The position numbers were made by a program, and so were the translations under genes. A stretch of 25,646 bases of DNA, from IMG/VR virus record IMGVR_UViG_3300044858_001362, positions 1-25,646 of that record. One strand, 5' to 3'. This document shows positions 1,867-24,424 of the stretch, in pieces. Numbering within the stretch: the stretch's first letter is position 1; each line of letters opens with the position of its first letter. The notes beneath the pieces are model-generated. The model saw only the letters and a program-made list of their open reading frames with translations. It searched no databases and was not told where the DNA came from. Source of the stretch: a virus.

Positions 1867-2730
1867 TTAAGCGTTGTAAAATGAACTACTTAAAAAAGTA
1901 TGAACTGTAAAAGAACCACTTGTAGTTACTATTCCACCAGAACCAACTTGTGTTCCTGGATATTTTATTATTGCTATACCACTACCACCTGACCTTCCAA
2001 CAACATTTGTATTTGCTCCCATTCCTCCACCACCACCACCTGTGTTAATTTCACCTGCTGTCGCGTTGGTTGTGTTATTTACTGTTCCACCTAATCCACC
2101 ACCACCTGGTCCTCCTGGTGTTAATATTGCTGTCGCTCCACCACCTCCGCCACCACCTGCGTAAAATGTTCCATAGAATAAACTACCTGAACCACCTGGT
2201 CCTCCTTGTGATAATGTTATTCCTCCTCTTTGTCCTACTTGACTTGCTCCACCTCCGCCACCTCCATTTGAACCACCTGCTGCTGAACCTGTCGCTCCGT
2301 TGTTTCCATATATTATTGGAAAGTTTGATGGTATATTTCCTAATCCTGCCCAACCTCCGTTTCTTGTGCTTGCTCTGTGTTCACCGCCACCTGAACCACC
2401 ATTTTTACCGAAGGGCCCTGTTCCTGATAAACCACCTCCGCCACCACCACCGCCTGTTGCTGTGATTTGACCGAATAAACTATTGTTTCCGTTTCCACCT
2501 GGTTGGCTCATAGCACCTACTCCACCTGCTCCAATAATAACTGTGTATGTTGAACCTGAAATTACATTTGTAAATCCATTAAGGAAACCTCCGCCTCCTC
2601 CACCACCAGCACCATTAGTTGATGACGCACCGCCACCACCTACAAGTAGATATTCAACTTGATAAGAACCTGCGGGATAGAATGAACCACTACCTTCACC
2701 TTCCCAAAAACTAATTGGATTATAATTCAT
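1867..2730 (-). CDS. Glycine-rich tail adhesin candidate
   Basis: A 287-residue protein, about one third glycine, with many runs of four to eight Gly. It opens with a short beta segment (VEYLLVGGGGA at about 25-35), continues as Gly-rich loops broken by hydrophobic beta stretches (TVIIGAGGVG), and closes with GGSGIAIIKYPG and SGSFTVHTF. This layout matches the glycine-rich domain family (Gly_rich_2 type) found on many phage tail tips. The poly-Gly runs recall the polyglycine helix bundle of gp38-type adhesins of T-even-like phages, which bind the host receptor. Its ATG overlaps the fibre stop as TAATG, so the two are probably translated together, like gp37-gp38. The structural parallel is inference; no receptor can be named. 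Confidence 0.6.
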   Translation of the reverse strand: MNYNPISFWEGEGSGSFYPAGSYQVEYLLVGGGGASSTNGAGGGGGGGFLNGFTNVISGSTYTVIIGAGGVGAMSQPGGNGNNSLFGQITATGGGGGGGGLSGTGPFGKNGGSGGGEHRASTRNGGWAGLGNIPSNFPIIYGNNGATGSAAGGSNGGGGGGASQVGQRGGITLSQGGPGGSGSLFYGTFYAGGGGGGGATAILTPGGPGGGGLGGTVNNTTNATAGEINTGGGGGGMGANTNVVGRSGGSGIAIIKYPGTQVGSGGIVTTSGSFTVHTFLSSSFYNA

Positions 2731-5700
2731 TAGATAAAGTTTTTAACATTATTCATATATAAATTATTACTATCAACTGATATTAAACTTACAACATCAA
2801 CTGCTGTTGCTCCTGTTGTTGGGACATAAAATGAACCTGATGGTTGTTTAATATTATTACTAAATGTTATTGTTCCTGTTCCTCCATTAGACACAACAAG
2901 ATTTATTGTTTGACCTGGTGTAATGTTAGACGCTGATACAAATGTATCAACCCCTGTTGGTAATGATAGTGTGAAGAAATTACCATTATTTAAGTTTAAT
3001 GAAGCTGTATTAGATGTGATTGTTAAACTATTAACTACACCATAAACAGAACCAGATATTTTTAATGAACCTGTAATATTTTCACTATTTGGGTCAAACA
3101 ATAATGAACCTGTAATTCTTGTAGCACCTTGTGTGATTAATGAACCTGTGATGGTTGTTGAACCTTGTAAAGTATTAGAACCTGTTATAGTTGTAGCACC
3201 TCTTAAAGTATTAGAACCAGACATAGATATTGAACCACTCATTACAACTATCGCAGGATTTGATATAAGTAATGAACCTGTAACTCTTGTAATACCATCT
3301 AATGTATTAGAACCTGTAATTTGATTTACACCTCTTAATACATTAGAACCTGATGACGCTAATGAACCTGTTATTGATTGACTACCTGATATAATTAAAC
3401 TACCTGTAATTGATTGTATAGTAGCAATAGAACCTGTTGTAATTAAACCTGCCCCTGATATTGATGGTGATGTTCCTGATGAACCTGATGTTCCACTTGT
3501 TCCTGTTCCACCACTCGTTCCTGATGTTCCATCACTTCCTGATGAACCTGATGTTCCACTTGTTCCTGGAACACCTGTCTCACCCCAACTAATCGCAGTC
3601 CAATCTACATCTGGATTTGAGGTAAAGGTTGTCCCTTGTGTTACAAATCTAAATCCTGTTGATGATATTGTTGAACCTGATAAAGTTATTCCCCCAAAAA
3701 TACCACCAGTACTTAACACATTATAAGCTACCGTATAATTTGATGAACCAAATGGTTCTGCGAACACAACATCATAATATAAACCATCACTTCCTCCTCC
3801 TAATGGATAAATTACCCAACCAGATGTTGAATTAACATTTCCTGCTTTTGAACTTAAACCAATACCATCTGCTCCACTCGTTCCTGATGAACCTGATGTT
3901 CCGTTAGAACCTGATGTTCCACTTGTTCCATCACTACCTGAACTACCTGAACTACCTGATGTTCCTGATGTTCCATCTGTTCCGTTAGAACCTGATGTTC
4001 CACTTGTTCCATCACTACCTGAACTACCTGATGTTCCACTTGTTCCATCACTACCTGAACTACCTGATGTTCCTGATGTTCCTGATGTTCCTGATGGTGT
4101 TGTTGTGATTATAAATAATATTTGGTCGTTATTATTAAACTCGTATGTTGATGAAACTAATGTTACAGGATAAGACCAATAACTTGTATTGTCTGTTGAT
4201 GTTCCAATATCCCATACTTGTATATTACCTTGAACTGATTTATCTTGTAATGTAATTCTTGAACCACTCTTTAAGTTTCCTAAAAATATATCAAGATTAT
4301 CACCTTGTTGGTCTAAATCACTTACATTAATTTCTGTTGAACCTGATTGTGTTGCGTTATTCCAAATAATATGACCTGATAATGGGTCACCACTTGTTAT
4401 ACTTGTCTTCGCTTGATAGTTGAAGAATGAGTTTGATATACCTGATGAACCTGATGTTCCATCTGTTCCATTAGAACCTGATGTTCCTGATGTTCCTGAT
4501 GTTGCTGCGGTATATGATGTTCCGTTAATTGTTAATGAACCTGATATATTAACTGAACCTGTAAAGTTTGAATTATTATTACTATCAATATGTAAAGCGT
4601 TTCTCCTTGTTGTCGCTGATGTTCCTGTTCCTACAACAAACACTGCTTCATTTGAACTTTCTTGTAATGAACCTGTTGCGTTCCAACGACCAACAAATGT
4701 TGAACCACCCGCTGATATACCTGTATTAGAACCTGTTACAATCAATCCATTACCATATATTAATGTTGAATATAGTGATGTATTGTTTGAACCTGTTATT
4801 TCTAATGAAACACTATTATTTATACCACCAATTAAAGTATCACCAACACTTCTAACGACATTTGTTGCGGGGTTTCCTCCATAATTTATTGTTTGATTTT
4901 GACCTAATATTAAGTTTCTATTGAAAGTGGTATTATTTGCTGAACCTGTATGATAATAGGTATTATTAATTGTTAAACCACCCGCTAATATATTATTTAC
5001 AGAATTAATAGATGAACTAATATGATTATATGTAATACTATTCATCACTATATTATTAGTAAATGTTGGTCTTACTGTAAATGGTGTGGTATTTGCGTTA
5101 TGTGTTATAACATTACTAATGTTATTATTTTGTGCGTTCATAGAACCACTCGCTAAAACAAGATTGAATGTTCCACCATTAATAATATTATTAGTAATTT
5201 GTGGTTCGCCTCCCCCTAATGACGATGTGGTGAAGAATAAAGTCATATTCCCACCTTGAATAGTATTATTATTCATTATCGGTCTTAATATTGAACCTGT
5301 ATTTAATGTTGGTATTGTTGAAAGAATATTTCCATTACCATTAATATACCCATATCTTCCTTGTGGCCCTAATGTGTCTAATCTTGTTGCGTTTGTTAAA
5401 ATATTATTTGAACCTGATATAACTATTGAACCTGTTAAGTTTGCTGCGTTTGGAGAACCACTACCACCCATTATAACATTTGATTGTGAAATAGGACTTG
5501 ACCCTGTAATATTAAATTGAACCGACCCACTCCTATTTGCTTCACTTTGTATTGTAATTAAACCACCATTAAGTGTATTACCAATTAATGAACCTGATAA
5601 TGTTGTGTCTCCATTAACTCTTAATGAACCTGTAATATCAACACCATACTTAAAGTTTGATTTTTTCCATATATCCATATTACCATTAGGAGTAAAGGCT

Positions 5701-7250
5701 ATCGCCGTATCACTACCTGATGGGTTACTACCATTACCTAATATCATAGGTGTCATTACACCAGGATATTCAGGTGAATATGAGTTTGCTGCCATACCTA
5801 TATATGTAAGACCAGCTGAATAACCTTCTTCTGTGAATATTCTAAATGATGTAAATACATTTGTTGTGTCTCCTGTTGATGTTAAAATATTATAATCACC
5901 AAATTGTATCCCTTCATCTTTATTTTGTCCTCTCAACACATATCCGTATCCTGTTGTAGCAACAAATCCTCTATCACTAATAACACCATTTGATTTAACA
6001 CTACCTGTCACATAAAAAATATCATACATCAAACCAGTAAATGTATATGTTGCTCCACTCGTTGTTGTTCCTGCTGATAAAGTTAATTCTAAATAAGTCC
6101 CAAAATTAACTCCTGTGATTGTTGCGTTTGTAACACCTGGTCCATTTACTGTAACACCACTAAATCCATTATTATTCCACTCGTCAAATATAAAACTATC
6201 AAAGTTTGAAAAGTCAGCACCTAATATATTATTACCACCTGGTGCTACATTACTAACTAAAACTATTTGATTTTTAGTTGTGTCTAATGTTAATCCACCA
6301 TTTATTTCTTGATTTGATGTTAATGAACCTGTGGTGATTAAACCATCTCTATTAACACTACCTGTAACCACTGCCACACCATTAACCAATAACTCACCCT
6401 GAACTTGAACTGAACCTGATAATATTTGTTTATCACTTAATTCATCTCCAAATTGGTTTGAACCTGATGAATATATAACTGACGCTGTCTCGTATATCGT
6501 TTCAAGATAATTGAATGACGCGGAGTTTGCTGTAATTGTTCCTGTTACATTTAATGAACCACTTACATCTAAATCTCTTAACGCTGTAATTGTTCCATCT
6601 GTATAGTTTGCTTTATTTTGGAAACCAAACATCGCAGGGTAACTATCAGTTGGGTCATTAACATATATTGCTGGTCCTTTCGTCCAACCACTAACACCAC
6701 CACTTGATGGGTCAGCTGAATATCCAATTTCATCGTTTGTTGCTACAACATTATTAAATATTGCTAATGGGTTCAAACCTGCGCTTAATGTAGGTGTATT
6801 TACATTAATAGTAGTTGACCTAATAGTAGCACTACCACCTGAACCTGAAACTAATAAACGAGGTTGTCTTGTTCCACCAGTATCCATATTACTAATCAAC
6901 ATCTGTCCGTTTAAGTTAATATCATATTGACCTGAACCTGACACATTTAATGAACCTGTAATTCTTGTTGTTCCATTTACATCTAATGAACCTGTTATTG
7001 TTTGGTTTCCTATAAATGTATTTGAACCTGTCGTTGCGAAAGAACCTGTGTTTGTAAATGATACAGGTAGTCCGTTCACTAAAAACGAACCTGATATATT
7101 AACCGTATTTGTTGATACTTGAATAGGTATGTTATTACCCAAACCATCTTGTAATGATTGTGTTGTTGCGGTTACACCTGTTGTGCTGTCCGCCAACTTT
7201 ATTAAACCTTGATAGGTCTGTGATATATTATTACCGAATAATGTGCTCAT
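2730..7250 (-). CDS. Giant tail fibre with collagen-like GTSG blocks
   Basis: A 1506-residue fibre-type protein. The N-terminus (MSTLFGNNISQTYQGLIKLAD, then LQDGLGNNIPIQVSTN) resembles virion-attachment domains of fibres in related phages. Residues about 60-300 and 1265-1410 carry repeated 'ITGSLxVNG' beta turns, the pattern of triple-stranded beta fibres. Residues about 590-860 are Asn-rich with repeated NNI/NNT motifs, suggesting a parallel beta helix. Three collagen-like blocks of GTSG/GSSG/GSDG triplets lie at about 916-938, 1051-1128 and 1228-1262, separated by two compact beta domains. The C-terminus (ITFSNNIKQPSGSFYVPT ... NNVKNFI) resembles fibre-end domains. It probably forms a long trimeric fibre for host contact. 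Its start lies 8 bases after the upstream 190-residue gene. The beta-helix call is pattern recognition, not a fold prediction. Confidence 0.75.
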   Translation of the reverse strand: MSTLFGNNISQTYQGLIKLADSTTGVTATTQSLQDGLGNNIPIQVSTNTVNISGSFLVNGLPVSFTNTGSFATTGSNTFIGNQTITGSLDVNGTTRITGSLNVSGSGQYDINLNGQMLISNMDTGGTRQPRLLVSGSGGSATIRSTTINVNTPTLSAGLNPLAIFNNVVATNDEIGYSADPSSGGVSGWTKGPAIYVNDPTDSYPAMFGFQNKANYTDGTITALRDLDVSGSLNVTGTITANSASFNYLETIYETASVIYSSGSNQFGDELSDKQILSGSVQVQGELLVNGVAVVTGSVNRDGLITTGSLTSNQEINGGLTLDTTKNQIVLVSNVAPGGNNILGADFSNFDSFIFDEWNNNGFSGVTVNGPGVTNATITGVNFGTYLELTLSAGTTTSGATYTFTGLMYDIFYVTGSVKSNGVISDRGFVATTGYGYVLRGQNKDEGIQFGDYNILTSTGDTTNVFTSFRIFTEEGYSAGLTYIGMAANSYSPEYPGVMTPMILGNGSNPSGSDTAIAFTPNGNMDIWKKSNFKYGVDITGSLRVNGDTTLSGSLIGNTLNGGLITIQSEANRSGSVQFNITGSSPISQSNVIMGGSGSPNAANLTGSIVISGSNNILTNATRLDTLGPQGRYGYINGNGNILSTIPTLNTGSILRPIMNNNTIQGGNMTLFFTTSSLGGGEPQITNNIINGGTFNLVLASGSMNAQNNNISNVITHNANTTPFTVRPTFTNNIVMNSITYNHISSSINSVNNILAGGLTINNTYYHTGSANNTTFNRNLILGQNQTINYGGNPATNVVRSVGDTLIGGINNSVSLEITGSNNTSLYSTLIYGNGLIVTGSNTGISAGGSTFVGRWNATGSLQESSNEAVFVVGTGTSATTRRNALHIDSNNNSNFTGSVNISGSLTINGTSYTAATSGTSGTSGSNGTDGTSGSSGISNSFFNYQAKTSITSGDPLSGHIIWNNATQSGSTEINVSDLDQQGDNLDIFLGNLKSGSRITLQDKSVQGNIQVWDIGTSTDNTSYWSYPVTLVSSTYEFNNNDQILFIITTTPSGTSGTSGTSGSSGSDGTSGTSGSSGSDGTSGTSGSNGTDGTSGTSGSSGSSGSDGTSGTSGSNGTSGSSGTSGADGIGLSSKAGNVNSTSGWVIYPLGGGSDGLYYDVVFAEPFGSSNYTVAYNVLSTGGIFGGITLSGSTISSTGFRFVTQGTTFTSNPDVDWTAISWGETGVPGTSGTSGSSGSDGTSGTSGGTGTSGTSGSSGTSPSISGAGLITTGSIATIQSITGSLIISGSQSITGSLASSGSNVLRGVNQITGSNTLDGITRVTGSLLISNPAIVVMSGSISMSGSNTLRGATTITGSNTLQGSTTITGSLITQGATRITGSLLFDPNSENITGSLKISGSVYGVVNSLTITSNTASLNLNNGNFFTLSLPTGVDTFVSASNITPGQTINLVVSNGGTGTITFSNNIKQPSGSFYVPTTGATAVDVVSLISVDSNNLYMNNVKNFI
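3467..3569 (-). repeat. Collagen-like GTSG repeat block (C-terminal)
   Basis: Nucleotide repeat in the fibre gene made of 9-base units reading Gly-Thr-Ser or Gly-Ser-Ser on the minus strand; about 34 codons with one GGTG interruption. It links a compact beta domain to the C-terminal ITGSL region. Confidence 0.85.
3866..4098 (-). repeat. Main collagen-like GTSG repeat block with a perfect 50-base duplication
   Basis: About 78 codons of Gly-x-Ser/Gly-x-Asp triplets. Within it, the 50 bases at 3901-3950 recur without change at 3982-4031, an offset of 81 bases or 27 codons. Perfect identity at third codon positions points to a recent in-frame duplication rather than selection on the protein alone. 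A shorter further copy begins just after 4031. Confidence 0.9.
4439..4503 (-). repeat. Collagen-like GTSG repeat block (N-terminal)
   Basis: Shortest of the three Gly-x-Ser blocks in the fibre gene, about 22 codons, including one GTDG and one GSNG unit. It joins the ITGSL/'SLTINGTSYT' region to the first compact beta domain (SFFNYQAKTS...). Confidence 0.85.
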
Positions 7251-11655: not shown

Positions 11656-14112
11656 TTAGATTTTAGACCTTTGTTGTATTATTCTGTCTGTCTCTTGTTG
11701 GGACGACATTTCACTTGCTACTACATAGGTTTTGAATATCGGTGGTTCACTATTATTATTAATATTACCATTAAATCCTGAATAGTTGTAGTCCCTTGCT
11801 CCACCACCTAACGCGTTGATTGTTTCTAATTGTGGTCTATACATCTGTGTTGAAGCTCTATTCACCACAAACTCTCCACCTTCTAATTCACCAAATGGTG
11901 TTGATATACCACCCATAGCGTGTGTTGGCCCTTGTAATACACCACCCATCGCCTTTCTAATTCTAACCTCTGGAACATCTACTGTTGGAACTGAAACCGC
12001 TGTAATTTCTCTTACTGTTTTAAGACCTGTTGCGATAATAGTTGCTACATTCACAACCTTTGTAATAACATCAAATGGTGATGGTAGTGTTGATTTTTGT
12101 TTAATCGCTTCACTCGCACCCACATAAGTATTAATCAACGCCTGTGATATACCTAACGCCTTACCCGCTAATGTCTCTTTACCAACCAAATCACTTAACG
12201 CACCTAACATATTCGCTACACCTTGTGCTTGTTCTATTTGTTGTTTATACTCTTTATCATTAATTGACATTCTCGCAGTAGCGTTCGCGTCTTTTGTTTT
12301 GGTGTAGGCTAACTCAATCTGTTGTTTTTTAAGTGCGTCATCACCTGCGGCAGCAATTGCTTTGTCATACGCCTCTTTATCAATCGCCTCTTTCTGTGAT
12401 AATAATTCTCTTTGTAATTCAAAATCACCTTCGGCTTTCGTCATTTTATAATCTAATTCCGCCTTGTCTATATCTTGTTGTGCTATTGCTTTTGCTTTGG
12501 CACTTTCAATTTCTTTTTGGTTGTTTGCTAATACCTGATTAGATAAATTACCAGCTTCAATACTAATATCTCTTAATCTCTGTATATCAGCGTCACTCAA
12601 TTCAGTTTTAGATAATATCGCCATCTTCTCATCTTCAAGTGATTTGGCCCTAATTGCTTGTATATCTAACTGTGCTTTCTTATACGCTTCACTATTTTCA
12701 CCATATAATATTTTAATTCTTTCTAATTCTACATTTTGTTCTGCTAATCTATTCTTTTGTCCGTCCAATAAAATCTTAATCTTATCGTCTTCTAATTTCT
12801 TTAAATCTTCTTTTTCTTTCTTTGTCTTCGCTTCACTTGCGTCTGTGTCCGCTTTAAGTGCGTCCTTTATCGCCTTTTCTCTATTTTGTTTTTGTAGTTC
12901 TAATTCTTCCGCTGATTTTTTAGTTCCCTTATTTTCTAACTCATCTTTCTTTTCAAGATATTGTCTTAATAATTTTTCATCTGTATCAACCTTATTCTTT
13001 TCTAATTCAATCTGTGCGTTTAATTTATTCTTCTGTGCTTCCAACGCTTTACTCGCAGCCTCTTTTGCTGACGCTGCCACCTCATTATCTATCCCTTTTA
13101 ATGTTGCTGCTGTCTTCTTACCTATCTTTGATGAGGCTGCGTCAATCTCGTTAATCTGTGCTAATTGTTGTAATAGTGCGTCTTTCTTCTCACCATTCAA
13201 AGCCTTGTTTTGTAATTGTTGATTGATGAAACTTTTTAATCTCGCACTATCCGCCTTTTTAAGATTTTCAATTTCTGTGGTAGTTAAATCCATATCCACC
13301 GCCATTTGTTGTGCTAATAATCTCGCTTTCTCTAACGCAATTCTTTTACCCTCTTTCGCTGTCGCCTCTTCAATCTTCGCTGCGTCCATTACCGCCTTTC
13401 TTCTTTCTTCAATAGATTTGGTGCTGTCCGCAGCAATTTCTCTTGCTTCCGCTAACGCTGCGTTGGATAGTGATTGTTGATATTCATACTCTGCGGTTGC
13501 GTCGTCTAACTCATTCGTTCTATCAGCCATATCACTTAATATGTCTCCAAAACCTTTTCCACTATCACTTGCTGAACTAAATATATTAACTAATCCTGAT
13601 ATTCCATTTGCTACCGCCTCTACAACTGTTACTACTGCTGGTAAAATTAAGTTTGCTAACTTACCCATAGTGGCAGACCATACATCTAATACCTTATTTA
13701 ATGGTTCCATTACACCATCAAAACTCTTCATCTTCTCTACCACCGCAGCAATAATAGTAGCCAATAAACCTAACATAGAGGTTTTTATTGCCATACCAAT
13801 ATTACCGAACGCTTTACCTAAACCTTGTAATGACTGACCGAACACTCCTACAAGACCTGGTGCTCCCGCCAAAGTTTGTAAATAAGTTTTAGAACTATCC
13901 TGTGCTTTACCAAACGCCTTTTCAGTCCTTGATAATTCATTTGATAATTCCTTAAACTCTTTACTACCTATTGGTGTTCCCGCTAATTTGGTTCTTAACG
14001 CACCAATCTGTTCTTCAAATCCTGATAAAGTATTAATGGTTTTTTCTAACTGTTCGTTCCCGTCTTTTGTATCTACTGTTACTTTTACCTTAAACTCTTT
14101 AAATGACGCCAT
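11656..14112 (-). CDS. Tail tape measure protein
   Basis: An 818-residue protein. Two hydrophobic segments (about 111-125 and 152-178) are followed by long Ala/Lys/Glu-rich coiled coil from about 200 to 640, with many heptad-like stretches. A second hydrophobic patch (ALINTYVGASEAIKQ to VATIIATGLKTV) precedes the C-terminal signature GGVLQGPTHAMGGISTPFGELEGGEFVVNR at about 723-752, which I recognise from tape measure proteins of Bacteroidota phages. It sets tail length by stretching inside the tube and helps DNA entry. At about 1.5 angstrom per residue it would suggest a tail of roughly 120 nm, assuming it is not heavily processed. Unusually it lies downstream of the large tail-tip type gene instead of upstream. 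A 41-base A-rich gap separates them. Confidence 0.85.
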   Translation of the reverse strand: MASFKEFKVKVTVDTKDGNEQLEKTINTLSGFEEQIGALRTKLAGTPIGSKEFKELSNELSRTEKAFGKAQDSSKTYLQTLAGAPGLVGVFGQSLQGLGKAFGNIGMAIKTSMLGLLATIIAAVVEKMKSFDGVMEPLNKVLDVWSATMGKLANLILPAVVTVVEAVANGISGLVNIFSSASDSGKGFGDILSDMADRTNELDDATAEYEYQQSLSNAALAEAREIAADSTKSIEERRKAVMDAAKIEEATAKEGKRIALEKARLLAQQMAVDMDLTTTEIENLKKADSARLKSFINQQLQNKALNGEKKDALLQQLAQINEIDAASSKIGKKTAATLKGIDNEVAASAKEAASKALEAQKNKLNAQIELEKNKVDTDEKLLRQYLEKKDELENKGTKKSAEELELQKQNREKAIKDALKADTDASEAKTKKEKEDLKKLEDDKIKILLDGQKNRLAEQNVELERIKILYGENSEAYKKAQLDIQAIRAKSLEDEKMAILSKTELSDADIQRLRDISIEAGNLSNQVLANNQKEIESAKAKAIAQQDIDKAELDYKMTKAEGDFELQRELLSQKEAIDKEAYDKAIAAAGDDALKKQQIELAYTKTKDANATARMSINDKEYKQQIEQAQGVANMLGALSDLVGKETLAGKALGISQALINTYVGASEAIKQKSTLPSPFDVITKVVNVATIIATGLKTVREITAVSVPTVDVPEVRIRKAMGGVLQGPTHAMGGISTPFGELEGGEFVVNRASTQMYRPQLETINALGGGARDYNYSGFNGNINNNSEPPIFKTYVVASEMSSQQETDRIIQQRSKI

Positions 14113-14153: not shown

Positions 14154-17100
14154 TTAACAAGGGTCACAATCAGCAGACACATTACAAGGTGTTCCACAAT
14201 ATGTCTCGGTTAAAAATCCAGAGTTTATTATAATTGAACTACCTGTTTGGATACAGTGCGTTCTACTTGCTCCTGCTATTAAGTTTGGTGATTGTGTAGT
14301 TCCATTACAATTTGTGATTGTATAGTTTCCTGTTGTTCCACCTTCGTTCAATATTGTAATACACTCACAATCTGGCGGAGTAGGTGTATTAGTCGGCGTA
14401 GGAGTTGGTGTGTTTGTAGGAGTTGGAGTAGGTGGTGTATTATTACAAGCCTGACAACTTCCACTTCTTGTTGCTTCATTACTACCACTTGAATGGAATA
14501 TTTGAACGTAATTTCCGTCATAAGACAACCAAAATGTGTTCGTTCCTAATGATGTGAAGAAACTACTTGTATATGTTGTTGTTGCGCAGAATGTTGGTTG
14601 ATTTAATGTTACAGTTATTGCTGTTCCACTATTACAAGCTAAATAACCTGATGGTTGTGTTGTCCCGTGATAATTAACTGAAATTGTTGGGAACGGAGTT
14701 GGTGATGGAGTTGGTGTGCTCGTTGGTGTAGGCGTAGGAGGTTCTGGTGTATTAGTAGGCGTAGGAGTTGGTGTTCCTGTCGGTGTAGGAGTTGGTGGTT
14801 CTGGTGTGTTTGTAGGTGTAGCCGTAGGAGTTGGTGTTGGTGGTTCAGGCGTGTTCGTTGGTGTCACAGTAGGTGTAGGAGTAGGGGTTGGTGGTGTATT
14901 ATTACACGCTTGACACGCTATTGAACGAGTTGCTGTATTACTACTACCTGAATGGAATATTTGTAAGTAATTACCATCATAAGACAACCAATATGTTGTT
15001 GTTCCTAATGTTGTGAAGAAACTACTTGTGAATGTTGTTGTATCACAGAAAGTAGCTGCGTTCAACTGAACCGTTATTGCTGTTCCACTATTACAAGCAA
15101 ACAAACCTGATGGTTGTGTTGTTCCGTGATAATTAACCGAAATTGTTGGGAACGGAGTAGGAGTAGGTGTTGCTGTCGCAGTAGGAGTTGGTGTGCTCGT
15201 TGGTGTAGGAGTTGGTGGTTCTGGTGATGGGGTTGGTGTAACCGTTGGTGTCGCAGTAGGAGTTGGAGTTGGTGGTTGAGGACATAATGTGCTACAAGTT
15301 AATGTTCCTGCTCCACTCATAGTTGTTAATGTTGCTCCTGGTTGTGGTGATACCGCTTCTGTTGCTCTTAAAATTAATGTTGTTGTAGGGTCTAATCTAT
15401 AACGAGGGTTTGGTTCAAATATTGTTAAAGCAACATTATTCGCAACATAAAACTCACTTAAATATTCACAACTACCATCTTCTAAACAACCATACTCTTC
15501 TACTAAATAATAGAAATAAGGGTCAGGAGTTGGTGTAGGAGTTGCTGTCGCAGTAGGAGTAGGTGTAGGAGTTGGAGTAGGACAAGTTCCACAAGCACCG
15601 TTTGGTGTTGCGTTTCCTGTAATACCTAATCCTTTTGTAAAACTCCTTACTTGTGAACCACTACTAATCCAAAACTCACTACCAGGGTCTATATCACTTA
15701 ATATAATATCACCATAGATTGATGTAGCAGAACATAAATCACCACCTACACCATCAAACGAATAAGCAAAGTATGGAACGAATGAACCACCCGCACAAGC
15801 GTTGTCCGCACTTACATAACTAATATATCCTGTAAATGTTGTAGGAACTGGCGTAGGAGTTGGGGTTGGAGTAGGACAAGCAACAATTGCTGTAATTCTA
15901 CCATCATTCGCAGATGGAATATTAACCACATAAACTGTTGAACTATCAAACTCATAATAACCAAACTCTACTGGTGTTGTTAATCCTGATGTTGTATATA
16001 AATCTGTTCCTATTCCTAATGAACCAACATACCAAACTGTAAGTGCTGTTGTTGAAGCACAAGCGTTGTTTAATGTTGCTCCTGAATAAACTGTCATACT
16101 AAATGGTATTGGAGTTGGTGTAGGAGTAGGAGTGCTCGTTGGTGTGCTCGTTGGTGTAGGAGTTGGTGGTTCTGGTGTTGGAGTAGGAGTTGGAGTATTG
16201 GTCGCCGTAGGTGTAGGAGTTGGAGTAGCAGGTGTATAACCAGTACATACATATCCTGTATTACAATTACCTTCTAAATAAGTTAATGTTAAATAACTTT
16301 GGTCTATACCTTCTGTTAATATTGGGTCAAATTGAACCACACCAAGAATTGATTGGATACATTGCTTATATACTCCTGGCCCTGTTGAGAAAGCCCTTGC
16401 TGTTTGAACCCCAAAACAATCGTTATAAACTAATGTAGCAATTGTTCCACCTTCTGGTGGAGGTAAAGTATTTCCTGTCACATATATTGGGAAACAATAA
16501 CACTGCCCCACAGGTGCTGGTGTGCTTGTTGGAGTAGGAGTTGGAGTATTGGTCGCCGTAGGTGTAGGAGTAGGTGTATTTGTTGGAGTAGCCGTAGGAG
16601 TTACAGTTGGTGTATTTGTAGGAGTAGGTGTAGGAGTTGATGGGATACTTTCAATATCCACAGTCAACAACTTAACTAACTCTACTTTTGTTGTTCCATA
16701 ATTTAATAAGTTAAAATTACTAATCTTATTAATTCTATAATAAGCGTCTTTAACAAATATTAAATCACTATATTTTAAGTTGGTTACATCTTCTATGTTA
16801 AGGAAGAAATTAGCACTAACCATTCTTGCGTCAGCGTCTAATAAATTATCTATATAATCCTTATAGTATAAGTTATACGCGGTTAGATTTGTGAATGATG
16901 GTGATACTGCGTCCTGTGGTGAGTTATTATTACCAAAGTTTAAATCCACCGCTTGTTGTGCTTGTGTTGATGGTAATATCTCTTGATGGTGTAAAAATGG
17001 GTAATTAGTATATACATCTGTAAGTTCTGTTACCTCATCTTTAAAATACCAAGTTCCTGATATGTTCTGTCTACCACAATAGTGTAATATACGAGGTTTA

Positions 17101-18953
17101 ATCCTCATAGGTAATAGTTGTGTGATTGTATTACCACTTACCGTAACCTGTTTAATCCCGTAAAAATGGGGACATATTAAAGGTTGTGAGGTATTACTCG
17201 CTTGTAGAAAGTTTCCTGGTGATGGTGAAAAGAATGTCTTTATTTCAAGTGGTTTATCATTTAGTGTAATACCTGATGGGATAAAGTTATATGTTCCAAA
17301 GTTTCTATTGTTGTTAATAGTTTTGGTATAGTTATTTATCTCATCACCATCTTCCTCATATAAAAAGTTTATAGCTTTACCCACCAAATTAGTTATTGGT
17401 GATATTTCTATTGGTTTAGATACATCTAATTTATCCGTCCAATCTAATCTATCTCCTTGTCCCACATAATCACTATATGGTTCCATTATATATGTTTCAC
17501 TCAAATATGGGTGTTTAACAAATACCATATTGAACTGTGTAATAATACCTTTAAGAAAATCTAATTGTTTGTAAGTTCCTGGTAGTTCAAACTGTTGGTT
17601 CACATCTACTGTTGAACCTAATATATTGTTTGGTGCGTCTGTAATTGTAACTACTGATACATCTTTAATAACATTAGGTGCTACAAATCTTCTACTATCT
17701 ATACAAGCGAAAGGGTCACCTATATAATATTTAACAACCATTTCAACAAAATCACCTTGTAGTAAAGGAATTGTAACTGCTGTTCCTGATGATACATTAA
17801 CTGTAAAGTCAAATAAATCAGGGAATGTTTGATATGGTATTACCGAATATCGTGTTGTTCTGTTTTTATACAAATAACATTCACCGTATATACCTGTTTG
17901 ATTATCTTGAAACGCTGATGGAACTTCTAAATCTAATGAATATGTAAAACTATAACTACCATTCTGTGGTGCTATAAATCTACTATTAGCAAAGTTCCAA
18001 CCGTATGGTGGATATGTTGCTCCATTATTGTAAATGTATTTATCCAATTCCACCCAACCTTCAATTACAGCACAAGTTGAACCTGATACAGAAAATCCTT
18101 GTGGTGTATCTGTAATTGATACCGCTGTTTGTGATGTTCCTAATGTTGCTCCCGTTGCTGATATATAATACCCATCGTTGTTGAATATGAGGGGCATATA
18201 TAAACGGTTGAAATATTCCGTATCACAAAAATTACTTTGTAATGTATAACCGTTCTGTTGGAATATTCTATTTAATACTGATTTGATTTGTATTGCTGGT
18301 TTAAAACCAGTCGTCTTCATAGGTGTTGTTATATTTGATATAGAACCCAAATTACCATATAATTCCAATACGGGTGACGCAGTATTACCTGATGTAATAA
18401 TTCTTCCTGTATCGTCATATAAATAACCTATGTGTTGAAATGGATATAATATCTGTCCGTCCTTTAATCCTCCCGATGTTGTTGTTCCTGTATATACTGC
18501 GTCCCAACTTAACTTTACATTTGTTGCGTTATATGTGTGGTTTAAATCTGTATAATTTATATCAGTAAGTAATTTATTACTGATATTATTAATAAACACT
18601 CCAACCTCATCTTGTATATTCACCTCATATTCTACCTTATCATTTGTAATAATAATCTTTAACAATCTTAATATACCATCAATTATTGTATTACCCTTGT
18701 AATTTACACTACATAACACAGATTTTTGTATATCAAACGATAGATTATCTGCGTTGACATTAAACATATAATTGAAGAAACTATTGTTTATTGATGTTCC
18801 TGGCACCCTAAAAGTTTGTGAATATCCACTATTACGACTTGTAATATCCTGTATCTCCGCAAAGGACATATTAAGATTTACTAATACATCATCGTATAAG
18901 TCAAGTATAATAGTTGAACCACTTAAATTGGTTACCTGAATGAGTGTCTCCAT
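14154..18953 (-). CDS. Giant tail-tip protein with Pro-Thr linkers and Cys-domain array
   Basis: A 1599-residue protein. Residues 1 to about 765 form a tail-tip/baseplate-like part: it opens METLIQVTNLSGSTIILDLYDD, then 'GYSQTFRVPGTSINNSFFNYMFNVN' and 'NTIIDGILRLLKI', a pattern I know from large tail proteins of Bacteroidota phages and prophages. From about 768 on, seven Pro-Thr-rich linkers (runs of PTPT with NT, AT, EP inserts) alternate with beta-rich domains of 75-95 residues, each with Cys. Two of these (1268-1352, 1421-1505) are a duplication. The last domain ends in a Cys-rich tail (CNVSADCDPC). This would be a tail-tip hub carrying an extended string of small exposed domains for host or surface binding. 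It starts 3 bases past the previous gene. The N-terminal hub role is inferred. Confidence 0.75.
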   Translation of the reverse strand: METLIQVTNLSGSTIILDLYDDVLVNLNMSFAEIQDITSRNSGYSQTFRVPGTSINNSFFNYMFNVNADNLSFDIQKSVLCSVNYKGNTIIDGILRLLKIIITNDKVEYEVNIQDEVGVFINNISNKLLTDINYTDLNHTYNATNVKLSWDAVYTGTTTSGGLKDGQILYPFQHIGYLYDDTGRIITSGNTASPVLELYGNLGSISNITTPMKTTGFKPAIQIKSVLNRIFQQNGYTLQSNFCDTEYFNRLYMPLIFNNDGYYISATGATLGTSQTAVSITDTPQGFSVSGSTCAVIEGWVELDKYIYNNGATYPPYGWNFANSRFIAPQNGSYSFTYSLDLEVPSAFQDNQTGIYGECYLYKNRTTRYSVIPYQTFPDLFDFTVNVSSGTAVTIPLLQGDFVEMVVKYYIGDPFACIDSRRFVAPNVIKDVSVVTITDAPNNILGSTVDVNQQFELPGTYKQLDFLKGIITQFNMVFVKHPYLSETYIMEPYSDYVGQGDRLDWTDKLDVSKPIEISPITNLVGKAINFLYEEDGDEINNYTKTINNNRNFGTYNFIPSGITLNDKPLEIKTFFSPSPGNFLQASNTSQPLICPHFYGIKQVTVSGNTITQLLPMRIKPRILHYCGRQNISGTWYFKDEVTELTDVYTNYPFLHHQEILPSTQAQQAVDLNFGNNNSPQDAVSPSFTNLTAYNLYYKDYIDNLLDADARMVSANFFLNIEDVTNLKYSDLIFVKDAYYRINKISNFNLLNYGTTKVELVKLLTVDIESIPSTPTPTPTNTPTVTPTATPTNTPTPTPTATNTPTPTPTSTPAPVGQCYCFPIYVTGNTLPPPEGGTIATLVYNDCFGVQTARAFSTGPGVYKQCIQSILGVVQFDPILTEGIDQSYLTLTYLEGNCNTGYVCTGYTPATPTPTPTATNTPTPTPTPEPPTPTPTSTPTSTPTPTPTPIPFSMTVYSGATLNNACASTTALTVWYVGSLGIGTDLYTTSGLTTPVEFGYYEFDSSTVYVVNIPSANDGRITAIVACPTPTPTPTPVPTTFTGYISYVSADNACAGGSFVPYFAYSFDGVGGDLCSATSIYGDIILSDIDPGSEFWISSGSQVRSFTKGLGITGNATPNGACGTCPTPTPTPTPTATATPTPTPDPYFYYLVEEYGCLEDGSCEYLSEFYVANNVALTIFEPNPRYRLDPTTTLILRATEAVSPQPGATLTTMSGAGTLTCSTLCPQPPTPTPTATPTVTPTPSPEPPTPTPTSTPTPTATATPTPTPFPTISVNYHGTTQPSGLFACNSGTAITVQLNAATFCDTTTFTSSFFTTLGTTTYWLSYDGNYLQIFHSGSSNTATRSIACQACNNTPPTPTPTPTVTPTNTPEPPTPTPTATPTNTPEPPTPTPTGTPTPTPTNTPEPPTPTPTSTPTPSPTPFPTISVNYHGTTQPSGYLACNSGTAITVTLNQPTFCATTTYTSSFFTSLGTNTFWLSYDGNYVQIFHSSGSNEATRSGSCQACNNTPPTPTPTNTPTPTPTNTPTPPDCECITILNEGGTTGNYTITNCNGTTQSPNLIAGASRTHCIQTGSSIIINSGFLTETYCGTPCNVSADCDPC
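14439..14693 (-). repeat. Duplicated Cys domain, C-terminal copy
   Basis: Encodes 85 residues (FPTISVNYHGTTQPSG ... CQACNN) that align without gaps to the copy at 14898-15152; by eye 69 of 85 residues are identical. Both copies share four Cys and the 'WLSYDGNY.QIFHS' core. The duplication included flanking linker sequence, since both copies are bounded by 'TPFP' and 'NNTPP'. Confidence 0.9.
14898..15152 (-). repeat. Duplicated Cys domain, N-terminal copy
   Basis: Partner of the copy at 14439-14693. Differences are scattered and mostly conservative (F/Y, T/S, L/V), so both copies appear to be under selection to keep the fold rather than one decaying. Confidence 0.9.
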
Positions 18954-18956
18954 AAA

Positions 18957-20225
18957 TTACATTTGTTGTGTTCTTGTTGGTGTAGAATATTTGTATTTGA
19001 AACTAACCTGTCTTAATCTCACATTTCCTTTTATTTGTCTCTTAAAGTCGCTGCTGGTGATATTGATTGGCAATAATTTGTTTGATACTATATCATCTAA
19101 CAAATATACCTGTGGTGATGTTAATAATTCCTCCAACCAATTCACACTATCTCTATCTATAAAATCACTCATCACCTCACCTTCTACTTCTAAACCTGTT
19201 GATATATTACTTGTTCCTCTCTCGTATGTTTTATAATCGTATGTTGTAGAAGCCCAAGTTCCATACGCTCTTTCGTATGTTCCTCTTGTAATTTTTATCG
19301 CCTCATCTTTACTACCATAAAATCTAAATGTGTCCCATACTCCATATCTATTTTGGAATATAACATCTCTCGGTTCGTATTTCTGCCAAGGACAATTCTT
19401 TTTATATATAATTCTTTTTTCATATTCGGTAGACATAGATAGTTCAACTCTAATCCAATCCTTTGTTTGTGAATTGGCTGTTAATATATCTTGTATTGTT
19501 CCCGACATATAATATCCATTAATGGTGCTCGCTGTATATGAACCATTATTACTTGTATAACCTGTGCTTGTTCCATCTGTAAAATAAAATGTTGCTGTAT
19601 AACCTAACCTTGATATGTTAGCGTCTTCACCTGCTTGATTATCTCCCGCTAATACTCCAATACAAATTGGTTCGTCTGCTTCCCTGTATTGTGTTAGTGG
19701 TTGATTAGATAAAATATATCTATTTGTTGCTTTGAAATAATTTGTATTAACCCAATTATATCCTTCACTAAATTGATGAACCCCGTTAAATACATTTAAT
19801 ACTCCTGTGCTTGTTGATGATAATGTTGTTCCTGTTGAAGCTGTCCCATTACCATTATATAATACTGTTGAACCTGATAATGATGTTGAATATTCTTCCC
19901 CACACATTACATAGTATGTTCCTAATGTTGTCTTTAATGTATAAGGAACCCAATTCAAATCAGCGGTATTACCACTATATAAATCCTGTGATAATTGTAA
20001 TTGTAAGTATCTACTTAAATCTAACATACCAACTCCTGATGGGTTTGGTGTTTGTCTTACTCTACCCAAATAGGTATAAGATACTGCTTCATTTGTCTTT
20101 GCGAATAAATCAAAGACATACTTAAACTTAAAGTTTGATACTACCTGATTTGATGATACTGTTAATACATTATCACTATACGCCTGTTTTATATATTGTG
20201 GTGTTTGTGTTACCGTTACTGCCAT
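18957..20225 (-). CDS. Conserved tail structural protein
   Basis: A 422-residue, Tyr/Thr/Ser-rich, mostly beta protein. Its conserved-looking core is at 280-305 (WQKYEPRDVIFQNRYGVWDTFRFYGSK), and I recall this motif from uncharacterised tail proteins encoded next to the large tail-tip gene in Bacteroidota phages. The N-terminus (VTQTPQYIKQAYSDNVLTV) and the C-terminal 'SDFIDRDSVNWLEELLTSPQVYLL' with 'FKYKYSTPTR' also look domain-like. No signal peptide or membrane segment is seen. It is packed tightly between the gp10-like gene (1 base) and the tail-tip gene (3 bases), so it probably joins tail-tip or distal-tail assembly. The exact role is unknown. Confidence 0.7.
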   Translation of the reverse strand: MAVTVTQTPQYIKQAYSDNVLTVSSNQVVSNFKFKYVFDLFAKTNEAVSYTYLGRVRQTPNPSGVGMLDLSRYLQLQLSQDLYSGNTADLNWVPYTLKTTLGTYYVMCGEEYSTSLSGSTVLYNGNGTASTGTTLSSTSTGVLNVFNGVHQFSEGYNWVNTNYFKATNRYILSNQPLTQYREADEPICIGVLAGDNQAGEDANISRLGYTATFYFTDGTSTGYTSNNGSYTASTINGYYMSGTIQDILTANSQTKDWIRVELSMSTEYEKRIIYKKNCPWQKYEPRDVIFQNRYGVWDTFRFYGSKDEAIKITRGTYERAYGTWASTTYDYKTYERGTSNISTGLEVEGEVMSDFIDRDSVNWLEELLTSPQVYLLDDIVSNKLLPINITSSDFKRQIKGNVRLRQVSFKYKYSTPTRTQQM

Positions 20226-22075: not shown

Positions 22076-23298
22076 TACGCTACTACAAACTTTTTAGGAA
22101 CATTATTTCTTTTACTCTCTACTGCGAACGCTAAACTCATCACACAATCATCGTGAAACCCTGCTGGTGCGAAATACCTAATCTTCCTTGACTTTGTGCT
22201 ATACTCAAATGTGAAGACCCTTAATTCTGTGTCTAATGGTTCAAACAGTTGTTTAGTTGGGAGTAGTATTGTCTGTTCGTTTATTTGAACTATAAGGTTT
22301 CCAATTATCTCTTCCTTGTTTTGGTTGGTTGTGTGGAACGCTTCTATCTTTCTATACCTTTGGAATATCTGTTCGTATATCACATCACCAATACTATTCA
22401 CCTCCACTATTGCTCGTGCGTTATATTTCTGTAATATCCTTACAATCTCATCTACTATGTTCGTCCAATTATTTCTTCTCTCTCTGTATATATAAACTAC
22501 CTGATTGAAATTATTTATTATAGTCAATACAGTAAAGTCATTCTGTCTACCTAAATCTATTCCCGCCCAATACCTTTCACTCTCCACAGGTTCTTGCCAT
22601 CTCGTTATTAGTTGCGCCTGATGATAGTGTCTAAACACCTCTCCACCATCTTCAATAAACTCCGCCATAATCTCTTGACGGAATATATCATCAGGTAGGC
22701 TATTTTTCGCCTCGTTAATTTCATCTTCTGTAATAAAGGGTGTGTCATAACTTGTATATTTTAAGGATAAATAATCAGGTGTCTCTTCACTTACACCTTT
22801 ATTGTATAGGTTATAAAAATAGTTCTTACCCTTTGGTGTGGATATAAACAATATCTTCTTACCTCTTACTAATGTTGCTGGTCTTAATACTTCATTCCAT
22901 ACCTCATCTCTAATGAACGCAGCTTCATCTACTACGAGAAAATCTAATGTATAACCTCGTAGGTTGTCTGGTTTCTCTCCTGACTTAAAGTGTATGGTTG
23001 AACCGTTTGTTAGTTTAATCCATACCTCGCTTCTATTTGTGGTCTTAATTAATCCTGTTTCCTTTAAGGCTTTAACCAATTCATCAAACACTTTCTTTGC
23101 TTGTGAATAGATAGGACTAACCCAAAACCCAACACTATTATCATTTTCTAAACACCATTTTAATATTAAGTTCTGTGCTAATAATGATTTACCGAACTGT
23201 CTACCACAATCAATAATGATATACTTTGCCAAAGAACTTTCAATCTGGTTGATACACTCTCGTTGTTTTGCGTGTGGTTTGAATAATCTTATATTCAT
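22075..23298 (-). CDS. terL: Large terminase subunit (ATPase-nuclease packaging motor)
   Basis: A 407-residue protein, a normal TerL length. Walker A is CGRQFGKS at 31-38; Walker B is FLVVDEAAF at 120-128 with catalytic Glu125; the coupling motif is ISTPKG at 152-157. The C-terminal RNase H-like nuclease has Asp248 (GIDLGRQNDF), Glu299 (IVEVNSIGD) and the Asp pair 383-384 (FHDDCVMSLAFA), all intact. TerL pumps DNA into the prohead through the portal and cuts it at the end. Its ATG overlaps the stop of the methyltransferase-like gene (TAATG), and its own stop overlaps the next ATG in the same way, so it sits inside a tightly coupled set. Both enzymatic halves appear functional. Confidence 0.95.
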   Translation of the reverse strand: MNIRLFKPHAKQRECINQIESSLAKYIIIDCGRQFGKSLLAQNLILKWCLENDNSVGFWVSPIYSQAKKVFDELVKALKETGLIKTTNRSEVWIKLTNGSTIHFKSGEKPDNLRGYTLDFLVVDEAAFIRDEVWNEVLRPATLVRGKKILFISTPKGKNYFYNLYNKGVSEETPDYLSLKYTSYDTPFITEDEINEAKNSLPDDIFRQEIMAEFIEDGGEVFRHYHQAQLITRWQEPVESERYWAGIDLGRQNDFTVLTIINNFNQVVYIYRERRNNWTNIVDEIVRILQKYNARAIVEVNSIGDVIYEQIFQRYRKIEAFHTTNQNKEEIIGNLIVQINEQTILLPTKQLFEPLDTELRVFTFEYSTKSRKIRYFAPAGFHDDCVMSLAFAVESKRNNVPKKFVVA

Positions 23299-23843
23299 TA
23301 AAATACTTGTTTGTGATATGATAATATCTTATTTGGTTGTCGTCCAAACTTTACCCACGCGTATCTACCAAACCATCTTTTATCTCCTACGATGTGTAGG
23401 TTCTGTATATACCAACCTTTGTTCTCCATCTCTTCAACTCTGTTCGGTGTAAAAACATTTAACGATGAAAAGTTAATCAACCAATATATCTCTCGTCTTG
23501 TTGTCTCCATCGCCTTTTGATGAAACGACCAAAACAATTTGCGTGGGACAAATGGTGGGTTTGATAATGTTATATCTACATCACCTTCATAAGTTAGATA
23601 GTCCTTACCCATATTAATCTCACAGAATATATTATCTGTATTAGTTGGTAAGTTATTGTAGAACGCTCCATCACCAAAACAAGGTTCCATTACTTTATCT
23701 CCGTCCTTAAAATCAATAAGGGATATAAGATGTTTAGCCATACCCTCACTTGTATAACATATAGTAGGGTCTTTAATAACCATCTCTGTTAAGTGGTCTG
23801 TTCCACTCTGTTCTTTTTTCCAATCCCAAATCTGTTGTCTCAT
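23298..23843 (-). CDS. Short N6-adenine DNA methyltransferase-like protein
   Basis: A 181-residue Rossmann-fold methyltransferase. Motif X-like CYTSEGMAKHLI (29-40) precedes SAM-binding motif I, VMEPCFGDGAFY (51-62), an acidic residue after the second strand (FCEINMG, Glu75), and motif IV NPPF (95-98), where the target amine is flipped in. This order is that of gamma-class adenine N6 methyltransferases. At 181 residues there is little room for a target recognition domain, so specificity may be low or supplied by a partner. Likely effect is modification of phage DNA against host restriction, or an unconventional substrate. It lies between the glycosyltransferase (5-base gap) and TerL (TAATG overlap). 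Confidence 0.75.
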   Translation of the reverse strand: MRQQIWDWKKEQSGTDHLTEMVIKDPTICYTSEGMAKHLISLIDFKDGDKVMEPCFGDGAFYNNLPTNTDNIFCEINMGKDYLTYEGDVDITLSNPPFVPRKLFWSFHQKAMETTRREIYWLINFSSLNVFTPNRVEEMENKGWYIQNLHIVGDKRWFGRYAWVKFGRQPNKILSYHKQVF

Positions 23844-23848
23844 AATAA

Positions 23849-24424
23849 TTAATTGTGTATATATAATACTTTATTTACTTTTCTCGGTTTAATCCCTCTA
23901 AAAGTTCTTAAAAACTCCTCAACATATAAACCATCTGCTTCGTTCTTATCTACTTGTAACCTTATATCCTTACCATATCTTGTGCGAACTATAAAGTTTC
24001 CTATATCAATCCTGTATGTCTTTGGTTCACTATCCACAGGTATATAATTATTATTGACCCAATTATGAACCATATTACAATATACAAAGTGTGTTCCGTC
24101 CGCTACCTTTAACATCTCATCTACAAACACAGGAACATAGTAGTTGTCGTCACCAGTCATACATACCCACTCTTCTGTTGAGTTGTCTAATCCATATTGA
24201 CGAGGTGTGTGTCCCCAATCATTATAGTTCTTATCTAAATGTGTAAATCTAATCTGTGGGTGGTTTTGGTATATTTCTTTAACCTTATCATAATCATTTG
24301 TTTCCCCATCTATAACAATATGTGCCGTCCAATTATTATTTGTTTGGCAAACCAAAGACGCTATTATTACCATTATCTTTTCAGGTCTGTTATATGTTGG
24401 TATAATAAAATCTATTCTACTCAT
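23849..24424 (-). CDS. Family 2-like (GT-A) glycosyltransferase
   Basis: A 191-residue GT-A type enzyme consisting of little more than the catalytic domain. It opens with the nucleotide-sugar binding strand FIIPTYNRPEKI (6-17), followed by HIVIDGETNDYDKV (35-48), the 'TPRQYGLDNSTEEWVCMTGDDNYY' segment with the metal-binding DDN at 92-94 (DXD equivalent), and an acidic stretch NEADGLYVEEFL (161-172) where the catalytic base is expected. No membrane segment is seen, so it is cytoplasmic. Its acceptor is unknown: modified DNA, virion proteins and host surface sugars are all possible. It lies just after the small terminase and before the methyltransferase-like gene. Confidence 0.8.
   Translation of the reverse strand: MSRIDFIIPTYNRPEKIMVIIASLVCQTNNNWTAHIVIDGETNDYDKVKEIYQNHPQIRFTHLDKNYNDWGHTPRQYGLDNSTEEWVCMTGDDNYYVPVFVDEMLKVADGTHFVYCNMVHNWVNNNYIPVDSEPKTYRIDIGNFIVRTRYGKDIRLQVDKNEADGLYVEEFLRTFRGIKPRKVNKVLYIHN

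Follow-up and report, generated by a model that had tools for sequence, protein, structure and literature searches.

Does the tail-associated protein encoded in this stretch of viral DNA (25,646 nt, hereafter the window) end in a fixed set of domains, or is its C-terminal part a string of small modules that phages duplicate, lose and trade? An earlier note, made from the sequence, had described PT linkers joining Cys-containing beta domains and had proposed that modules could be swapped through repeated linker DNA. We followed up this reading with structure prediction, comparison of relatives carrying the same body, a census of the modules on other proteins, and null models for the linker DNA.

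Layout of the module string and folding of its domains

The gene encodes a protein of 1599 aa (Table 1). The first 770 residues form a body without linkers, and the rest, from residue 771 onward, is built of seven PT-rich linkers and seven domains of 72–90 residues in alternation. The translation thus bears out the linker-and-module architecture of the C-terminal part and the presence of Cys in each domain. The span given for it in the earlier note, 14374-16642, covers linker 1 to linker 7 but omits D7, which is part of the array. Cysteines are enriched in the modules (32 of 569 residues) relative to the body (7 of 770; Fisher p 5e-7; odds ratio 6.5-fold). D3, D5 and D6 make up one family, here called B, in whose alignment four Cys are invariant. 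Four Cys columns are conserved in D1/D7 and four in the D4 family. D5 and D6 are near-duplicates.

Table 1. Position of the module-string gene, its parts and two neighbouring genes in the window.
Feature	Position	Strand	Remarks
Tape-measure-like 818-aa protein	11656..14112	-	Label inferred from position and make-up; PHROG without function
Whole gene, tail-associated protein with C-terminal module string	14154..18953	-	Single open frame from ATG
D7, aa 1528-1599, 8 Cys	14157..14372	-	94 copies (58 ORFs, 49 loci), more than for any other module family
PT linker 7, aa 1504-1527	14373..14444	-	
D6, aa 1424-1503, B family, 4 Cys	14445..14684	-	AlphaFold2 pLDDT 92.1; 83% identical copy in L119
PT linker 6, aa 1351-1423	14685..14903	-	Longest linker
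D5, aa 1271-1350, B family, 4 Cys	14904..15143	-	80% identical to D6
PT linker 5, aa 1226-1270	15144..15278	-	40-nt exact DNA repeat with linker 2
D4, aa 1144-1225, 4 Cys	15279..15524	-	Found at 17 viral-contig loci; body-less carriers have it at up to 67% identity
PT linker 4, aa 1125-1143	15525..15581	-	DNA colinearity with L013 stops at window 15529
D3, aa 1038-1124, B family, 4 Cys	15582..15842	-	B-family alignment; copy in L101 (carrier type 3) 52% identical
PT linker 3, aa 1027-1037	15843..15875	-	
D2, aa 949-1026, 2 Cys	15876..16109	-	Several carriers have relatives; that in L109 (carrier type 3) is 65% identical
PT linker 2, aa 907-948	16110..16235	-	DNA repeats with linkers 1 and 5
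D1, aa 817-906, 6 Cys	16236..16505	-	AlphaFold2 pLDDT 91.2; 79-85% identical copies elsewhere
PT linker 1, aa 771-816	16506..16643	-	45-nt exact DNA repeat in common with linker 2
Conserved N-terminal body, aa 1-770	16644..18953	-	Probable tail-tip/baseplate part; conserved in IMG/VR relatives
422-aa tail gene	18957..20225	-	Distant homologues carry tandem D7 modules

D1 and D6 were predicted singly with AlphaFold2 because a combined MAFFT alignment piled up fragments from several families over a single domain. The D1 model, built on a 28-row alignment of relatives, is compact and all-beta (pTM 0.78); the D6 model, built on 20 rows, is compact and mostly beta with two short helices (pTM 0.82). 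With mean pLDDT of 91-92 these domains are therefore not disordered, the outcome that the earlier note had named as counting against it, and for both predicted domains its term 'beta domains' holds, with the two helices of D6 as a qualification. As to the sugar-binding or Ig-like folds that it had suggested looking for, the absence of a convincing PDB match for D1 and D6 neither supports nor excludes them. Foldseek gave no PDB match at E <= 0.001 for D1 or D6, and the best Z in a second look with VIA-align, 3.2 for D1 and 5.9 for D6, is common background according to the tool. The D1 alignment to a CBM35 chain (Z 3.2 over 71 residues) lies at this background level. The BFVD search gave one match for D6, to a domain of an uncultured Caudovirales protein (E 6e-4, TM 0.80). 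No Pfam family matches the window protein at E <= 0.1, so no BACON (PF13004), Ig or CBM model does. The analysis defines several widespread module families with no assignment in Pfam or the PDB and no PHROG function.

The gene order runs TerL, neck-like genes, the 422-aa gene, the module-string gene and the tape-measure-like 818-aa gene, which suggests a tail-tip or baseplate protein. We infer the tail location from this order because PHROG 38559, to which the body is assigned, carries no function and the body profile (45 rows) has no sequence match in the PDB. The cultured phages gave no match for the body, the D5/D6 module, the module arrays of contigs L057 and L113, or the L089 carrier. Only divergent bodies reach the Nonlabens phages P12024S/L (gp45). 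The N-terminal part of the body is related to gp45 of the cultured phage P12024S, which is annotated as hypothetical and has a sub-threshold BACON match (18 bits against a cut-off of 25). P12024S/L have a similar order (TerL gp37, ... gp44, gp45, ... gp49), and the portal of the window matches the same phages at 23%. From these divergent-body and portal matches a flavobacterial host is likely. No relative of the body or of D4 was found in bacterial and archaeal genomes.

Two other regions of the window deserve mention. A 1506-aa fibre-like protein (2730-7250, minus strand) contains collagen-like repeats (GTSGTSG; Pfam Collagen, E 2.7e-14) as well as numerous 'TGSLxVSG' repeats, and distant relatives contain matching patches of 48-140 aa. 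Between the small and large terminase genes, at 23298-24424 on the minus strand, lie genes that by eye are glycosyltransferase-like and methyltransferase-like.

Module sets on related bodies and on unrelated carriers

Two scans of IMG/VR yielded 80-odd loci with relatives of the body, which is 60-90% identical in close relatives and 26-40% identical in about 70 more. Six loci, the window among them, have readable C-termini and bodies at least 60% identical to that of the window. The C-terminal extensions on such bodies measure 829 aa in the window, 727 in L013, 160 in L015, 1589 in L016 and 854 in L057; that of L014 is cut by the contig end. L015 has a single module and L016 about eleven, a DUF285 region among them. 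The first module of L057 is the one in fourth place in L013, and L057 has three copies of D4. Bodies that are 60-80% identical thus carry from 1 to about 11 different domains, and the domain set is therefore not fixed. The comparison of domain number across relatives that the earlier note had called for accordingly ran against a constant set without exchange.

With L013, the closest well-covered relative, the window shares a colinear stretch of 7.8 kb that reaches linker 4 at 82-83% DNA identity; at the protein level TerL is 99% and the neck genes are 90-97% identical. The colinear stretch spans the body, D1 and D2, which keep the same order in both; D3 is already only 36% identical, the array differs after linker 4, and similarity returns just past the gene end. 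In L014 colinearity is lost in linker 1, and in L016 it resumes exactly at the gene end. Homology breaks between relatives thus fall in linkers (linker 4 in L013, linker 1 in L014).

Three further observations concern the surroundings of these genes. L009 is 91% identical to the window in DNA from the terminase to the neck genes and only 70% identical in the tail region; the abrupt change before the tail genes suggests a recombination boundary. A glycine-rich domain (PF21722) is encoded by a separate gene in the window (1867-2730, minus strand), and in L028 similar glycine-rich stretches follow 'TPTNTI' linkers within the tail-tip protein itself, so that this domain is possibly another exchanged module. 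Small ORFs that open with 4-9 residues, followed by PT-type linkers and one D2 module, lie just downstream of the tail-tip gene in L041 (about 11450), L037 (about 9312), L061 (about 9159) and L042 (about 7167).

A census by module searches, together with iterated HMMs run on every ORF of the collected loci, found 29 copies of D1, 29 of D2, 23 of D3 and 21 of D5 (D3 and D5 being one overlapping B family), 30 of D4 and 94 of D7. The regions that precede the arrays cluster into nine multi-member carrier clusters plus singletons, with no mutual BLAST similarity, and the five module groups are distributed over these clusters and singletons. The carriers include the body family of the window, a 430-860-aa protein (type 2; L113-L121), a 1400-2460-aa protein (type 3; L089, L093, L094, L098, L100, L101, L109) and homologues of the gene just upstream of the module string (L026, L086). 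In the last two, seven and three tandem D7 modules lie mid-protein without PT linkers (L026:381-3374 and L086:5175-7391). Large phages take part as well, on contigs of 335 kb (L095) and 217 kb (L104).

Different phages, and proteins with no homology to each other, have modules in common. Copies of D1 with 79-85% identity occur in L113-L121 and L117/L119, where structural proteins match those of the window at about 26-38% if short matches within the repetitive fibre protein are set aside. In L119 the copy of D6 reaches 83% identity, against 28% for the body, and relatives of D5/D6 on the unrelated 1610-aa protein of L089 are about 64-68% identical to D6. Relatives of D2, D3, D4 and D5/D6 at 45-67% occur in loci L089-L109, where a test of 14 window genes detected hardly any homologue, the exceptions being one 70-aa fibre-protein patch in L095 and the near-identical strain L090. 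D1 and D6 pass the threshold of at least 70% identity for sharing used by Smug et al. (2023, PMC10684548), and D1, common to the tail protein of the window and the body-less type 2 carrier, counts by that measure as recently shared. The swapping of modules proposed in the earlier note is well supported by these matches. A diversity-generating retroelement was set aside as the source of the variation, which concerns whole modules and not point substitutions; by eye, no RT-like gene was seen among the ORFs of the window, which belongs to an incomplete contig.

Repeats in the linker DNA and competing explanations

Exact repeats join linkers 1 and 2 (45 nt) and linkers 2 and 5 (40 nt). Repeats of this length were reached in 0 of 2000 trials in which synonymous codons were shuffled among linker positions, and in 0 of 2000 simulations under a first-order Markov model of codons. 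Linker DNA repetition therefore exceeds what protein sequence and codon use explain. Among 50 module-bearing arrays with at least three linkers (200 shuffles each), 10 had a repeat excess at P<0.01, where 0.5 are expected, carriers from other phages included; 33 did not reach P<0.05. In the jumbo-phage protein of L095, which bears two D4 modules, linkers share 98 exact nt. The exact repeats detected in the window all lie in one reading phase, and since the Pro-Thr unit is 6 nt long, a misaligned crossover would keep the frame. The idea of swapping through repeated linker DNA holds as to the exchange of modules and the repetition of the DNA, and the sequence comparisons strongly suggest that linkers are the place of the crossovers.

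Could the mosaic arrays have arisen in assembly, from short reads running through repetitive linker DNA and joining modules of different genomes? The linker repeats, which reach 45 nt in the window and 98 nt in L095, could mislead assemblers, and the contig of the near-identical strain L090 (99.9%) ends inside D6. All arrays come from metagenome assemblies, and that of the window is independently confirmed only at its D6-D7 end, where L090 reproduces the junction of D6, linker 7 and D7 and the downstream genes at 99.9%. However, identical arrays recur in contigs of different samples (L115/L116, L119/L120, L091/L092 and L062-L065), which argues against gross chimerism; all junctions keep open frames, and the module carriers are full tail-region genes. 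We therefore consider artefacts a very improbable main source of the mosaics. Purely vertical inheritance, with lineage-specific duplication and loss and with sharing that is only apparent since all carriers had modules anciently, is harder still to credit. The common order of D1 and D2 in the window and L013 fits it, and the D1 data are compatible with a clade of the two, which a test on D1 failed to reject (p 0.62). For D1, fast divergence in L013 would suffice as another explanation in this case. Against descent by this route, D1 and D6 are far more alike between phages than any backbone gene, the carriers are non-homologous, and AU tests on the module trees, which are short and long-branched, reject descent of the modules with the tail-tip protein: a single clade of tail-tip copies is rejected for D1 (4e-55), B (7e-56) and D4 (8e-5), as are window+L013+L057 for D4 (3e-9) and window D5/D6+L013 for B (1e-82).

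A different objection accepts the exchange and doubts the binding. The modules might be passive spacers or virion decoration, serving stability, adherence to mucus or particles, or shielding, with a variability that reflects weak constraint plus recombination. In line with this, Foldseek and VIA recognised no binding fold in D1 or D6, D7 modules also stand in 3-7 unlinked tandem copies within another tail gene, and the extension of L015 keeps one module only. The Cys and core positions are strongly conserved within module families, though, and modules keep 79-85% identity between phages that agree at about 30% elsewhere, which points to a selected function and makes the spacer reading unlikely.

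A putative adhesin array and known modular systems

We thus favour, as the probable explanation, a tail-anchored array of host-surface adhesins, diversified by in-frame module exchange that repetitive linker DNA aids. The conserved body would anchor the protein in the virion, at the tail tip or baseplate, and the C-terminal 830 residues would form a flexible string of seven small domains, stabilised by disulphides or Cys, on PT linkers. The modules most likely act as low-affinity, multivalent binders of a glycan or envelope protein on the host surface, and such a string would widen reach and avidity before the tail commits. This and unrelated phage lineages would draw modules from a common pool, in which they are duplicated (D5/D6), replaced, added and lost in frame. 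The CCN-ACN linker DNA would give homology at module borders, and its 6-nt unit would preserve the frame.

If so, uncultured phages of aquatic bacteria could diversify host recognition fast while keeping the tail machine, by means of a conserved body, plug-in modules and linker DNA that keeps exchanges in frame. The exchange of receptor-binding parts between unrelated phages would become directly testable, through crossover positions and the ligand of each module. A wider view, which we advance tentatively, is that PT-linker arrays serve in general as a platform for trading cassettes: small adhesin domains, Cys-stabilised and of undescribed folds, would form a shared pool that circulates in frame on different tail proteins among unrelated phages, from 30-kb siphophage-like to jumbo, with linker DNA as a standing recombination site. 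Such arrays might then constitute a natural plug-in system of host recognition.

Some secreted, multi-module polysaccharidases and adhesins consist of independent small domains on flexible proline/threonine-rich linkers. The earlier note had likened the tail protein to such surface enzymes and adhesins; unlike PT-linked polysaccharidases, it has no catalytic or known carbohydrate-binding domain according to Pfam. Domain shuffling of phage receptor-binding proteins is already known. A PT-linked cassette system with several unassigned module families and several carriers appears to be undescribed, and no description of PT linkers in phage tails was found among open-licence papers.

In the mosaicism of receptor-binding proteins, fragments are common to otherwise unrelated tail proteins, and tail fibres and spikes show the strongest recent sharing, at 70% identity or more (Smug et al., 2023, PMC10684548); the word 'linker' is absent from that paper. 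The array of the window likewise has fragments shared by otherwise unrelated tail proteins. Unlike in those cases, its modules are small, of unassigned fold, strung on repetitive PT linkers and placed on several non-homologous carriers, and they have no match in the cultured phage set. The BACON domains of crAss-like phages form tandem, tail-associated arrays in phages of Bacteroidetes, which grew by duplication and horizontal transfer of single domains and for which a role in host binding was proposed (de Jonge et al., 2019, PMC6949934). The modules of the window are similarly small, tandem and tail-associated and have grown by duplication and transfer, but by Pfam they are not BACON, and several unrelated families are mixed on PT linkers. 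T-even phages swap tail-fibre adhesins at conserved motifs (Tetart et al., 1998, cited in PMC7468147). As far as that citation describes the system, a repeated conserved sequence at module borders is in both cases the likely place of recombination. In T-even phages these are conserved motifs in the distal fibre locus of related phages, whereas in the window low-complexity PT linkers connect whole independent domains, carried on non-homologous proteins.
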